The position numbers and the translations under genes were made by a program. The notes beneath the pieces are model-generated. The model worked only from the letters and a program-made list of their open reading frames with translations. It had not been told where the DNA came from and ran no database searches. From the NCBI GenBank assembly GCA_029259545.1, contig JAPHEE010000023.1, positions 1 through 32,269 of the forward strand: a DNA stretch of 32,269 nucleotides, given 5' to 3'. The stretch comes from Candidatus Alkanophaga volatiphilum. Its GTDB lineage: Archaea; Halobacteriota; Syntropharchaeia; Alkanophagales; B39-G2. Shown here one piece after another: positions 21,450 to 31,898 of the stretch (position 1 is its first letter; each line of letters begins with the position of its first letter).

Positions 21450-22178
21450 CTATTCTTCTTTCTTTTCCGCCTCCATTCTCTTCTCTATTTCAGCCATTGC
21501 CATTTTTACCTCTTCGACGAGCCTTTTTACGGCGTCAACGCCTTCGACCGCGTCTGCTGCCCATGCATCCGCCCCTATTTCATCTGCAAACTCCCTAGAT
21601 GTAGCGCCACCGCCGATTATCGTCTTTATCTTGCCCTTAAGGCCCTTTTCCTTCAGCTTCTCCTCGATCTCTTCCATGCCCTCGAGGGTTGGCGTCATGA
21701 GCGTCGAAGCTGCGATGACCTGCGCGCCCTCCCTAACAGCAGTCTCTATGAACTCGTCGATGGGCACGTCCCTCCCCAGGTCTATGACCTCGAAGCCAGC
21801 GGCTCGCAGCATCGAAGCCACGATCGTCTTTCCGATGTCGTGGATGTCGCCCTCGACAACGCCGATCACGACCTTGCCTCTGGGCGCGCCCTCTCCGGCT
21901 TTCTCCTTCTCCCGCAGCTCCTGCTCGATGAGCGGCATGACGATCTCCATGGCGGCGTCCATGGCGTCGACGCACATCAGCATCTCAGGCACGAAGTACT
22001 CGCCAGCCTCGTACTTATCGCCCGCCATCGTCATGCCCACGCCCAAGCCGTCCTTCAGAATTTCCAGCGGGTGCGCTATCTTCTCATCGACGCCCTTCTT
22101 CACAAGCTCGACCGTCTTCTCCTTGTCGCCCGCACACAACGCCTCCGCAACCGCCTTCAAATACTCCTCTTTCTCCAT
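21450..22178 (-). CDS. MtbC/MtaC-like corrinoid protein of a methyltransferase system
   Basis: The protein carries a methyl group on a B12-type cofactor. Residues 1-90 form the helical cap (MAGDKYEAGEYFVPEMLM), and about 100-225 the B12-binding Rossmann domain. The cofactor signature is complete: DIHDIG (111-116) with His113 as cobalt ligand, Ser158 in AASTLMT, and the glycine triplet at 189-191. The Glu/Lys-rich tail (about 220-242) is charged. No matching substrate methyltransferase or MtbA-like partner is seen in the window. It may feed methyl groups into the ACDS corrinoid protein or pterin pool, but the substrate is unknown. The ATG has GGGGTGAG upstream. It is preceded by an unusual structured leader. 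Confidence 0.92.
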   Translation of the reverse strand: MEKEEYLKAVAEALCAGDKEKTVELVKKGVDEKIAHPLEILKDGLGVGMTMAGDKYEAGEYFVPEMLMCVDAMDAAMEIVMPLIEQELREKEKAGEGAPRGKVVIGVVEGDIHDIGKTIVASMLRAAGFEVIDLGRDVPIDEFIETAVREGAQVIAASTLMTPTLEGMEEIEEKLKEKGLKGKIKTIIGGGATSREFADEIGADAWAADAVEGVDAVKRLVEEVKMAMAEIEKRMEAEKKEE

Positions 22179-22182
22179 AATC

Positions 22183-22300
22183 TCACCCCGACCTGCCGCC
22201 CATCCGCACCGGGCGGCGCTCGCAACTCAGTTGATCGTGATGGGGAGTGTGCTGTAAAGCGCTCCCCGTCGGGCGGGTCCGCAGGTCATGCCCACGGACT
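22183..22300 (-). ncRNA. Structured leader homologous to IS1341-type omega-RNA/right end
   Basis: Between the TATA box and the corrinoid-protein start codon the minus-strand leader folds into a GGGGAG...CTCCCC hairpin (22242-22267). A 7-bp all-GC hairpin follows (arms 22195-22201 and 22211-22217), immediately before the ribosome site. The segment matches the 3' end of the tnpB element at 30.5 kb. On the plus strand TGGGGAGTGTGC is identical in both, and GCGCTCCCC plus the next 12 bases match at 20 of 21 positions. The order (internal hairpin, then GC hairpin, then flank) is also the same. It is either a solo IS remnant or an omega-RNA-like RNA; transcription is inferred from the promoter. Confidence 0.55.
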
Positions 22301-22310
22301 CGTCACACAT

Positions 22311-22333
22311 ATTATTGAACGCAATAATATAAA
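22311..22333 (-). promoter_or_regulatory. TATA box and inverted-repeat operator for the corrinoid-protein gene
   Basis: The minus strand contains CTTTATATTATTG, a TATA box, at 22323-22333. Overlapping its downstream end is a perfect inverted repeat, ATTATTG-AACG-CAATAAT (22311-22328, 7-bp arms). Placed between the TATA box and the expected start near 22300, it looks like a repressor operator. The transcript would have a leader of about 120 bases, long for an archaeon. Confidence 0.55.
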
Positions 22334-22439
22334 GTGTCCTTACCCCATTGAGAGGGGATTAGCGGCAACGTCGTCTTAAGCGCCTCGTGCCCGCCTCGGC
22401 ACTCCTGAGCTCCACGCCGCCCCGCCCCTCCGAGGAGCG

Positions 22440-26808: not shown

Positions 26809-27225
26809 GTGGAGGGAGAAAAGCCGAAGTTAGAAAAGTTTTCCTGCCCAAATCCTGAGTGCCCGGATTTCGGGGCTCTTGGCAGGGGCAATTTGGTTTT
26901 ACATGCGCCTTACGGTACGCAGCGCACCTACCTTCTCAGGTGTAAGACCTGTGGCAAGACGTTCTCCGTACTCCGAGGGACTCCTTTCTTCAAGTTGCGG
27001 ACTCCTAAGGACAAAGTTATAAAGGCGTTCTGGCAAATAGCTGAAGGGCGCAGCTTCAGAGAGACCGCTAGGGACCTTGGTGTGAGTGAGGATTCCATCA
27101 CAAGATGGGTGAGGCGAGCTTGTGAGCATGTCGAATTCCTCACGCAGTATTTAGAGGAAATCGGATGGGAGGAGGCTCGAATCACGGCGTTGTGGTTTTA
27201 TATTAAGAGGCGCAAAAAGAGCTAG
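26809..27225 (+). CDS. IS1-type transposase N-terminal fragment (zinc ribbon + HTH)
   Basis: The 138-residue protein matches the first half of IS1-family transposases. It has a zinc ribbon with Cys13, Cys18, Cys45 and Cys48 (with [20 protein letters not shown]) and a helix-turn-helix at about 80-105 ([20 protein letters not shown]). It stops right where the DDE catalytic domain should begin. The closing [14 protein letters not shown] resembles the DELWSFVKKK-like start of that domain but lacks the first acidic residue. No catalytic remainder follows, because the pcm gene overlaps the stop by 4 bases. It is either a dead remnant or a retained DNA-binding protein. The GTG start has GGAG sites and a TATA-like box upstream. 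Confidence 0.72.
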
Positions 27226-27890: not shown

Positions 27891-27964
27891 TGGGCCCGAT
27901 GCGATTCGAACGCATGACCTCCGCCGTGTGAGGGCGGCGTCATAACCACCTAGACCACGGGCCC
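27891..27964 (-). tRNA. tRNA-Val (anticodon CAC)
   Basis: A 74-base cloverleaf is readable on the minus strand. The acceptor stem is GGGCCCG/CGGGCCC and the D arm closes GTC/GAC. The anticodon stem CCGCC/GGCGG holds the loop CTCACAC (anticodon CAC, reading GUG). The T arm ATGCG/CGCAT has loop TTCGAAT, and the discriminator is A. There is no intron and CCA is not encoded. Confidence 0.96.
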
Positions 27965-28388: not shown

Positions 28389-30458
28389 TCACGCCCCCTC
28401 ACCCCTCGCACCCGCAGGCGGCACGATCCTCGCCCTGCCGGGCGGCAGCACCTTCGCTATCTCGTCGGGCGATGCGATCTGCCGCACGAGCCGCTTTTCG
28501 ACATCGCTCACCTTCTCCATGAAAACGTCGAAAATTCTCTTCGAGAGCTCCGTCCTCTCCACGTCGCCGGGTTCTATCTCCACGCAATATTTAGCACGCT
28601 GCCGCACGGCTTGCGGCGGACCTGCGATAAGCCGCGTCTCCTCGTTGATTTCGAGACCGATGCAAAGGCGTAGCGGCACTTTGAAGTAGCGGCGCTGCCC
28701 TCTGACGATGAAGCTGCCCTTTTTGATGTACTCCCCGCTCTCCGGCGTTTTGCTCACCTGCGTAGCGGCGACGCAGTAACAGTCGGCTTCTGCGAAGCCG
28801 TGCTTCCACATCGAGGAGTACGCAGCGGCGAACTGTGCAGCTTCGTGCAGTGAGCGTTCCGGCACCTCTCGCCCCCCGGTTTTAAGAATCACAACAGGCG
28901 CGCCTGGCGTTTCAGTATGGAAGAAGAGATCTGTGCTTTCCATGTGCTTCTTCACCAGCTCTTCGTTCGTCGTGGCGTCCTTGCCGCCGACGCACAAAAA
29001 GCCGTCCGACGTTTCGAACCACCGGTAACGCTCGTACCAGCGCTCCCGGCGTTTGATGCGGCGTTGCGGGTAAAGCTCAGCTGCTTTCGCTTCGAAAAGC
29101 TCCCGCTCAAGCTCCTCCTCAAGATGCTCTATTTTCATGCGAACTTCTTGAATCGCTTTTTTGACGCCCTCTTTTTTCCTTCTTAGCGCCTTCGCCTCCT
29201 CATAATACCGCTGAGCGCTCCTCTGCACGATTTTTTGAACTTGTGGCGGCGTCAGCTCCCCTTTTAAGAAGGCATCGAGAAACTCGCCAAGCTCGAGTTC
29301 GAAGTCGAAGTCGAGGGTGGGCAGCTGCAATACGGCACGCCTTGCCTTTTTGTTGATTTCTAATTTTTGCGATGCGTCTCCTCCTGTGGCGGTGAGCGCA
29401 GCCTCTACTTCTGCATAGTGCGTGTACAGCGCCTCCGCCTTCTCGACGCACGCCGCCTCCTTCTCCTCAAGCTTTTCCAACGCTTGCTCCTGTTCCTTCA
29501 AAATTCTCCGATACTTTTCCAGCTTTTCGTTCTTCAACTCTTTAAGCTCTTCTTTTACGGCTTCCACTGTCGTCGTGGTGAAGAATTCGTCGAGTGCCTC
29601 GTTAAAGCTGTCAAATGCTATTCTGTTGCGACGCTCGTAAATTTTCAGCTCGAAAGGGAGCACGTCATCGTATTTCTTCTCTGGGGCGGCGTCCATCGCC
29701 TCTGCGCCGTCTGCTGCGGCGAGGACGATATGCGGCTTCAGCTCTCCACGGAAGAGCGGCGAGAAAAGCTCTTTAATGGCGGCGTGTAGCTTTTTGATCT
29801 GCGTGTCGTCAAGGCTTGCGGCGACCTCGTCTTTTTCAACGCCCGCCCGCAAGCAAATCTCTTCTGCGAAGAGCCCGCCGAGGTTGAGCTGCGTGGCGAG
29901 TGTCCTGACGACGTCCTTCTTCGACGCCTTGAAGATTTCTTTTAGCGTTTTCTCGTCGATGTTCAACGGACTCGGTTTCGGCGGAGGAAATTCATAATGC
30001 TCGCCCCGCTTGAGCGCTCGTGCCGAGAACTCGACAGTCTTCAGCGGTAGGAGTATGCGACCGTCTTCGTCAAGAAGCACGACATTCCCTCTAGGCAAAA
30101 GCTCCGCCACGAGTGTCAGCGTCCTTCTCTCACCATCAATCCAAGTTTCAACGTCAATGAGAACTACCCTGTCGAAGTCATGCTGGCGAATCGCCGAGAT
30201 GCGACCGCCGCCGATGTGCTTACGTAGGAACATTGCGAAGTTCGACGGGAACTTCGGCGAGGGCTTTGGATACTTCGTGAGGTGGATGCGTCTGCCAGCC
30301 TCGATGATCAAGTCTAATGAGCCTTTCTCCCTGTGACGGAGGCGAAGCCGGATCTCAGTGGGACCGTGCTGGTACGCCTTTTCTATCTTCGCACCTTTGA
30401 GCCACTGGAGCTCGCCGACCACCGCTGCGACGTCAGCACTGCTCATCCCTTGTTTCAT
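28389..30458 (-). CDS. rqcH: Ribosome rescue protein RqcH (NEMF/Rqc2/NFACT family)
   Basis: RqcH binds obstructed large ribosomal subunits and, in the family, recruits tRNA to add C-terminal tails to stalled peptides. The NFACT-N domain starts at residue 1 (MSSADVAAVVGELQWLKGAKI). Helix-hairpin and coiled-coil parts cover about 290-470, rich in Glu/Lys. The NFACT-R domain begins at about 480 (SSDGFLCVGGKDATTNEELVKKHM, then DLFFHTETPGAPVVIL). At 689 residues it is full length. The start codon lies 7 bases after GGAGGAGGT, which is the edge of the tnpB element. The tnpB stop overlaps the start (ATGA). Gene and mobile element are thus directly joined. Confidence 0.94.
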   Translation of the reverse strand: MKQGMSSADVAAVVGELQWLKGAKIEKAYQHGPTEIRLRLRHREKGSLDLIIEAGRRIHLTKYPKPSPKFPSNFAMFLRKHIGGGRISAIRQHDFDRVVLIDVETWIDGERRTLTLVAELLPRGNVVLLDEDGRILLPLKTVEFSARALKRGEHYEFPPPKPSPLNIDEKTLKEIFKASKKDVVRTLATQLNLGGLFAEEICLRAGVEKDEVAASLDDTQIKKLHAAIKELFSPLFRGELKPHIVLAAADGAEAMDAAPEKKYDDVLPFELKIYERRNRIAFDSFNEALDEFFTTTTVEAVKEELKELKNEKLEKYRRILKEQEQALEKLEEKEAACVEKAEALYTHYAEVEAALTATGGDASQKLEINKKARRAVLQLPTLDFDFELELGEFLDAFLKGELTPPQVQKIVQRSAQRYYEEAKALRRKKEGVKKAIQEVRMKIEHLEEELERELFEAKAAELYPQRRIKRRERWYERYRWFETSDGFLCVGGKDATTNEELVKKHMESTDLFFHTETPGAPVVILKTGGREVPERSLHEAAQFAAAYSSMWKHGFAEADCYCVAATQVSKTPESGEYIKKGSFIVRGQRRYFKVPLRLCIGLEINEETRLIAGPPQAVRQRAKYCVEIEPGDVERTELSKRIFDVFMEKVSDVEKRLVRQIASPDEIAKVLPPGRARIVPPAGARGEGA

Positions 30459-31559
30459 GTTCGTGACCTCCTCCCCCGACTAGGGGGCTTCCACGTGAAG
30501 CTGGGGAGGTTGGGGAGTGTGCAGGATGAACCTGCGCTCCCCGCCGGGCGGGTCACGACAGCCCCTGCCCAGAGCATATAGCCTTGGGCTCGCTTCAGTA
30601 TATTTTTAGCTCCGTTTACATCTGCATTAATCTGGTATCCACAGTCTAAGCAGATGAAAAGTCCCTGAGAAGGTCTTCTCGTGTTCATCGAGCCACACCT
30701 AGAACACTGCTTCGATGTGTTGTATTCTGGAATCTCTACGACTGCAATCCCTCTCTCCAATGCCTTATTGATGTATTCCTTCAAGCGGTAGAAAGGCATC
30801 GAATTAACTTTCCTGTTGACTTTTCTTCCCCTGTTGTTCTTCCTAACTCCATTCAAATTACCTATGGCGATTATTGCGTTGTGCTTCTCAGCCTCATCAA
30901 CGATGTCCTTAGCAATCTTGTGAAGCTCATCACTCACAATTCTCTTTTCTTTGTCTCCTATCTTCTTTATCGCCAGTGTTTTCTTCTCCTTTCCAAGCTT
31001 TCTCCTTAACCAGAAATACTTCCCCCTTACTTCTCTAACTCTCTTGCCATAGAACTTTGGTTTGCTGCGGTGGAGTGCCACCGACACCCCCACCCAGCGA
31101 GCTCCCACATCAATGGCAATGATGGATGAGTATTCTTTTCTTAGTTCAACTTTCTTTTTAGCTGTGACGTGCAAGAAAAATTCTCCATGCTTTCTAACAA
31201 GCTTAGAACCACAAATCTCCCATTCTTCAAAGTTGAAGGGCTGATGGGCTAATGCGACCTTAATACCACCTCTTACACCATAAATGGGAATTCTTGCCCA
31301 GTATTTTGTGAGCTTATTGTTTGTTTTCCGAATGTCCATCAAATCCTTTCGGATTACAAGCGGATATTCTCTGTTAGGATCAATCTTCCGATAAGTTCTC
31401 TTTCCTTGCTGTTTCGTTGCGGAATAAACACCTTTATCTTCTCCTGTCTTCAAGTAGTGTTGGAAGTTGTCGTATTCTCGATTAAGTAGCTCAAGCTTCC
31501 GCTTTGTCAGACCAATGAGCTTACACTTGATTGTCTTTTGCTATCTCCGTTTCCATCAT
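30455..31559 (-). CDS. tnpB: TnpB (OrfB) RNA-guided nuclease with frameshifted N-terminus
   Basis: The intact frame from 31453 (TTG) gives 332 residues. RuvC-I is AIDVGARWVG (Asp115), the zinc ribbon is CSRCG...CLDCG (250-271) and RuvC-III is INADVNGAKN (Asp278). RuvC-II reads AIIAIGNLNG, with glycine (198) where the catalytic Glu normally stands. A Glu in IPEYNTSKQC (243) lies 45 residues later, as in the rearranged sites of Fanzor-like proteins. The homologous N-terminus extends upstream to about 31542. A good ATGATG with TATA box at 31559 (METEIAK) is one base out of frame, at the A4 run 31536-31539. So it is a broken gene, a sequencing error, or a shifted start. The tail after KNILKR is read-through of omega-RNA sequence. 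Confidence 0.85.
30466..30590 (-). ncRNA. Predicted omega-RNA (reRNA) overlapping the tnpB 3' end
   Basis: In TnpB systems the guide scaffold is made from the 3' end of the element. Here the minus strand has a long hairpin, GGGGAG...GCAGG-loop-CCTGC...CTCCCC (30512-30542), and a terminal hairpin (30473-30487). The guide would be the flanking DNA, meaning the first codons of rqcH. The internal hairpin region is copied in the leader at 22.2 kb. The 5' limit is a guess. Confidence 0.55.
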
Positions 31560-31574
31560 TTTTACACTAGCTTC

Positions 31575-31586
31575 AAAGTATAAATT
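31575..31586 (-). promoter_or_regulatory. TATA box of tnpB
   Basis: AATTTATACTTT on the minus strand lies about 21-25 bases before ATGATG (31559/31556). This would give a nearly leaderless transcript and supports that ATG as the original tnpB start. Confidence 0.5.
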
Positions 31587-31622
31587 AACTACCTCCTACC
31601 AGCCCCTCCCGCCTCCCCTCAT

Positions 31623-31641
31623 CCCCGCTTTAAAAGCGAGG
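31623..31641 (-). repeat. Hairpin at the left side of the tnpB element
   Basis: CCTCGCTT and AAGCGGGG pair (8 bp with one G-T) around a 3-base loop on the minus strand, flanked by GAAAG before and ATGAGGGG after. It resembles an IS605-type end hairpin. It could be the left end, or a right end left by a second element, or the terminator of cooC. Confidence 0.45.
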
Positions 31642-31650
31642 CTTTCTTAG

Positions 31651-31898
31651 CTTTTGTAAAAATTTCAAGAAATGCCGTAGCAGTTAGGGTAACTAACTAA
31701 TGGCGACGCTCACCGGCACACTGAGGTCGGTTTACTTCGGGTCAGAGCCGCAGTAGCGTTCTTGCAGATGTTCTCAAGCCTCACAACGTCAATGTCCCTC
31801 ATAGCCCTAAAAAAGCCGTTGAACGAAGAGCAGGACGATACGCTGCCAAATTTCGCCTGCGTATGGAGAAGGATCATTCGCCAACCGTCTGTACTTCA
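31651..31898. other. Intergenic region between tnpB element and cooC
   Basis: No gene is supported between the left-end hairpin and the cooC stop. Short frames on the plus strand here have no family motifs and run antisense into cooC. Together with the tnpB promoter region, about 340 bases (31560-31898) hold no gene; apart from the TATA box and hairpin nothing is recognised. Confidence 0.5.

Follow-up and report, generated by a model that had tools for sequence, protein, structure and literature searches.

The locus upstream of the corrinoid protein gene

The window, the whole 32,269-nt stretch of contig JAPHEE010000023.1 from Candidatus Alkanophaga volatiphilum, contains a corrinoid protein gene that heads a same-strand run encoding an AcsV-like activator, CdhA, CdhB, CdhC, CdhD and CdhE, extending down to 11700 (Pfam, NCBIfam). 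Immediately upstream of this gene lie a native leader and the remains of a mobile element, a full-length relative of which is found at 30.5 kb. The features concerned are the following.

21450-22178, minus strand: methyltransferase-cognate corrinoid protein gene (Pfam and NCBIfam)
22179-22236, minus strand: native 5' leader of the corrinoid gene, 58 nt, with a GC hairpin at 22195-22217 and GGGGTGA at 22183-22189; has an element-free counterpart in the congener
22237-22240, minus strand: terminal TCAC, right-end boundary; TCAC ends 55/58 copies of the family, and native GATCAACTGAG comes next
22242-22267, minus strand: hairpin GGGGAGCGC TTTACA GCACACTCCCC, corresponding to helices 5-6 of the family structure (pattern search, RNA fold and cmsearch)
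22277-22299, minus strand: stem-loop 1, GTCCGTGGG CATGA CCTGCGGAC (RNA fold)
22237-22301, minus strand: 65-nt remnant of the omega-RNA scaffold, from which two internal deletions removed 15 nt and about 46 nt (cmsearch and alignment)
22327-22333, minus strand: TTTATAT, a TATA-like box at -32 from the start of the scaffold, which is the family position
22352-22379, minus strand: left end (LE), which shares 26/28 bases with that of congener copy L100 (E=1e-5)
30463-31655, minus strand: full-length relative of IS605/IS1341 type with tnpB (ORF 30455-31453); complete omega-RNA/right end at 30463-30591, 123.2 bits

Rfam models at gathering thresholds matched a tRNA (27891-27964) alone in the window, no riboswitch or other family being found. 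An initial annotation of this DNA had described an omega-RNA-like leader before the corrinoid gene that shares sequence with the element at 30.5 kb. The match between the two places is real, with TGGGGAGTGTGC identical in 12/12 bases and GCGCTCCCCG[T/C]CGGGCGGGTC in 20/21, and goes far beyond what chance would give, BLAST returning 34 matches from the own genome (best other copy E=1.9e-8). Two further observations of that annotation were reproduced, namely the lack of a tnpB at 22 kb and an internal hairpin whose stem is kept with a different loop, a pattern with 18 exact matches against 0 for the reversed control. The notion of only two related copies had to be abandoned, since the 22-kb element is one of at least 58 in the genome.

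The insertion site and the native leader

In a scan of contigs for the corrinoid protein the one close genome was QMVQ01 (Candidatus Alkanophagales B39_G2), hereafter the congener (G001). It shares with the window the gene order hypE, corrinoid protein, AcsV-sized and CdhA-sized ORFs; its site is empty, and hypE and the corrinoid gene lie about 134 nt closer together than in the window. The congener leader runs from CTTAG directly into GATTAACTGAG, followed by a hairpin and GGGGTGAAATTATG, that of the window from CTTAA through the element into GATCAACTGAG, a hairpin and GGGGTGAGATTATG. The TTAA in the LE of the 22-kb element aligns with TTAG at the empty site; CTTAR is common to both genomes and may be part either of the target or of the left end, and the alignment is loose along the left flank of the empty site. 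The element part thus delimited is 22237-22379, with the native leader (22179-22236) outside it. Presence and absence at the same site come without target duplication, as judged by this one congener.

The GC hairpin at 22195-22217 has a counterpart in the element-free congener, as does the ribosome site, and both are therefore native. The initial annotation had pointed to a GC hairpin before the ribosome site in both copies; both hairpins exist, but there is no homology between them, that at 30.5 kb belonging to the right end of the element. In the comparison of leaders between sister genomes, which the annotation had proposed, the congener lacks the element but shares the native GC hairpin. 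This hairpin (22195-22217, minus strand), which lies just before GGGGTGA, occurs in both congeners with loop and register changed, and is a better candidate for a conserved leader element than the IS remnant.

A family of tnpB elements and mini-elements

An alignment of 26 copies, whose consensus spans about 127 nt up to a terminal GGAGGTCAC, served to build a covariance model (R1). The search with it, a check that the initial annotation had itself suggested, identified 57 complete copies in the own genome, a lower bound for which 58 candidates were scored. It also located 26 copies in G001, the only congener, and three genomes from the same order yielded a handful more. No family copies were found by R1 in the class-level relatives G055 and G057.

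C-terminal tnpB coding sequence lies just upstream in 10/58 copies, while 45/58 have a left end within 140 nt and are thus tnpB-less mini-elements, or PATEs (in the own genome, G000, for instance L007, L013, L014, L021 and L031). These begin with a left end containing GTCGCTAAGAAGG or TTAGGAAGATGTTGCTGCTAATCCCC. A short stretch rich in GC and then TTTATAC separate it from the scaffold, which is followed by GGAGGTCAC and the flank. TTTATAY or a similar box is found at -40 to -18 from the scaffold in 28/45 mini-elements, TTTATA[CTG] being present in 0.7% of shuffled 22-mers, and it is mostly placed such that transcription would begin at scaffold base 1. Since the complete element of the window has a similar TTTATACTTTGAAG stretch 5' of its tnpB, the mini-elements appear to have kept the tnpB promoter and dropped the gene. 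Several tnpB genes of the family are uninterrupted frames in the genome.

The complete element at 30.5 kb sits beside the start of an NFACT gene; the corresponding site in the congener is empty, and NFACT begins there with TTATAAACATGAAACAAGG. In the window the element end (30458-30480, minus strand) directly abuts the start codon of this RqcH-type NFACT gene, hence its terminal GGAGGT may now serve as NFACT ribosome site. In the TnpB family of this element (30455-31453, minus strand) an invariant Gly (GNL/GSL/GDL) aligns with the RuvC-II Glu that solved TnpB/Cas12f chains carry, and the Glu of PE[YF]NTS is invariant in 6/6 aligned copies; the active site is possibly rearranged. The tnpB frame is seemingly shifted near the N-terminus (about 31454-31560, minus strand), similarity by eye appearing to run on 5' of the TTG start in another frame. 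Elsewhere in the window a 138-aa ORF on the strand opposite to its neighbours (26809-27225, plus strand) matches HTH_23 and transposase-type HTH domains.

RNA structure of the family

The family has a real RNA structure. A model of seven helices with a pseudoknot (GTG with the terminal CAC) has 93.8% of cells paired among 74 distinct copies, with 15 pairs changed on both sides and a covariation score of 0.151 that was reached by 0/500 shuffles, figures that lean towards structure given that the alignment was fitted to a partly structured model and the copies are mutually related. Sliding the helix partners cuts pairing to below 50%. The pseudoknot pairs are 97% paired and show no double changes; as they hardly vary, the pseudoknot is backed by complementarity and conservation rather than by covariation. 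Loops are free to vary, which makes a changed loop on a kept stem a property of the whole family. The initial annotation had read retained pairing with a changed loop as a sign of selection on structure; given that variable loops and covarying stems are common to all the mobile copies, the retained pairing is not evidence of selection at 22 kb.

Identity and decay of the 22-kb element

The remnant at 22237-22301 (minus strand) scores 40.1 bits (E=5e-7) with model R1, to both ends of which it aligns; the scores of the 57 other family copies in the own genome range from 66 to 130 bits. Homology reaches upstream past the scaffold to the TATA box and to a left end at about 22379; the match of this left end to congener copies and the TTTATAT box at the family position are what set the element at approximately 22237-22379. 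Besides L100, weaker LE matches were obtained for four further congener copies and one in G052. Missing from the remnant are GCAGGGGCTGCCGTG and then the entire ACCTCC..GGAGG stem-loop, the 5' portion of the scaffold and the final TCAC being kept. Lost with the deletions are stem 2 of the scaffold, the guide-proximal stem (stem 4) and, from the predicted pseudoknot, the 5' strand; none of the other copies among the 58 combines these losses. What is left folds as two clean hairpins (-30.6 kcal/mol, z -3.6).

Haloarchaea such as Haloquadratum harbour palindrome-associated, transposase-free elements with IS605-type ends (PATEs), which have neither terminal inverted repeats nor target duplications; some arose from tnpB elements by deletion of the core and further shortened copies exist (PMC3119063). 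The 22-kb element fits this description on every tested feature. It is 143 bp long, below the length of transposase coding sequence, has no tnpB between its left and right ends, and its ends are of IS605 type with a near-terminal palindrome, according to the left-end matches, the right-end model match and the TCAC terminus. It differs from the haloarchaeal PATEs in belonging to a family of an Alkanophagales-type lineage, most copies of which have a TATA box directly before the omega-RNA scaffold. A literature search on tnpB-less or standalone omega-RNAs in archaea retrieved PATE papers, none describing the present family. We conclude that the stretch 22237-22379 is very probably not a guide but a decayed PATE specific to this lineage, derived from an IS200/IS605 (IS1341-type) tnpB element, without a tnpB of its own and non-autonomous. 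The suggestion of a solo IS end or old IS scar was thus essentially right, although a decayed PATE with both ends describes it more precisely.

The insertion could alternatively predate the genus and have been precisely excised in the congener. Single-strand transposition of IS200/IS605 elements leaves a clean donor site, making precise excision possible, and such a site would look like the empty site of the single congener compared. We nevertheless consider an older insertion improbable, given that G055 and G057 have no detected copies and that the LE differs from that of the congener copy at just 2/28 positions.

Promoter capture, scar or regulatory leader

In the congener TATTTAAAT lies some 20 nt upstream of the empty site, whereas the flank above the insertion in the window is GC-rich with no TATA-like stretch visible, the clearest nearby TATA-like box being that of the element. 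This difference makes the box of the element the most likely start, and we tentatively propose, at somewhat less than even confidence, that the corrinoid-AcsV-CdhABCDE cluster is now transcribed from it, with a start near 22302. The two remnant hairpins would then be simply the first 65 nt of the mRNA, upstream of the native 58-nt leader. The omega-RNA structure itself is probably under no current selection. The right-end region of a haloarchaeal PATE is expressed as RNA according to a statement in PMC10544981 citing Gomes-Filho 2015, which to that extent gives a promoter-bearing PATE a precedent; the 22-kb copy differs from it in being internally deleted. The element may control the corrinoid gene, mainly by promoter and leader capture; otherwise it is an inert scar. 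Alternatively, transcription of the cluster might run on from hypE.

Co-option of the remnant hairpins as a regulatory 5' leader of the corrinoid/CODH-ACS cluster, riboswitch-like or acting on translation and kept by selection, is likewise improbable. The remnant does lie within the likely 5' UTR and its fold is stable (see above). Its retained stems are free of substitutions, with point differences from the family confined to loops, a pattern that is also expected under weak structural selection. Against co-option, identical stems are found in unrelated insertions, from which it follows that those of the remnant were inherited from the element; moreover, the remnant is absent in the congener and the native leader downstream is intact, with its own hairpin and ribosome site.

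The guide question

The last scaffold bases of a TnpB omega-RNA of ISDra2 type form a pseudoknot that is contacted by TnpB and conserved in Cas12 guide RNAs (PMC10097598). Full copies of the present family resemble this type in having several stems, a predicted 3'-terminal pseudoknot (GTG and CAC) and a potential guide flank after the right end. The pseudoknot and the guide-proximal stem at the boundary, both present in the family, were lost from the 22-kb copy, which also lacks stem 2. As these defining parts were tested and found missing, it is not a functional omega-RNA and would not be expected to work as a TnpB guide. The earlier idea of a standalone omega-RNA that guides one of the TnpBs of the genome in trans can draw on the TATA box at the right spacing and on the several uninterrupted family tnpB genes, but is extremely improbable in view of these losses, including that of the TnpB-contacted pseudoknot (PMC10097598), and of the 16-nt flank, which has no match in the genome beyond its own site with up to two mismatches allowed.

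Implications

What was a candidate omega-RNA regulator is replaced by a lineage-specific mobile-element insertion. For the question of guiding in trans, the wider set of promoter-bearing, tnpB-less omega-RNA units is a better target than the 22-kb copy. It is conceivable, albeit rather unlikely, that the approximately 45 mini-elements, whose flanks all differ, act in trans as standalone guides for the few intact TnpBs, and that the unit at the corrinoid locus, broken as a guide, was retained because it supplies the CODH/ACS cluster with its promoter and 5' end. If the promoter inference is true, a tnpB-element promoter would have been captured by the CO dehydrogenase/acetyl-CoA synthase cluster, and thus by central carbon metabolism, in an archaeon of the Alkanophagales group.
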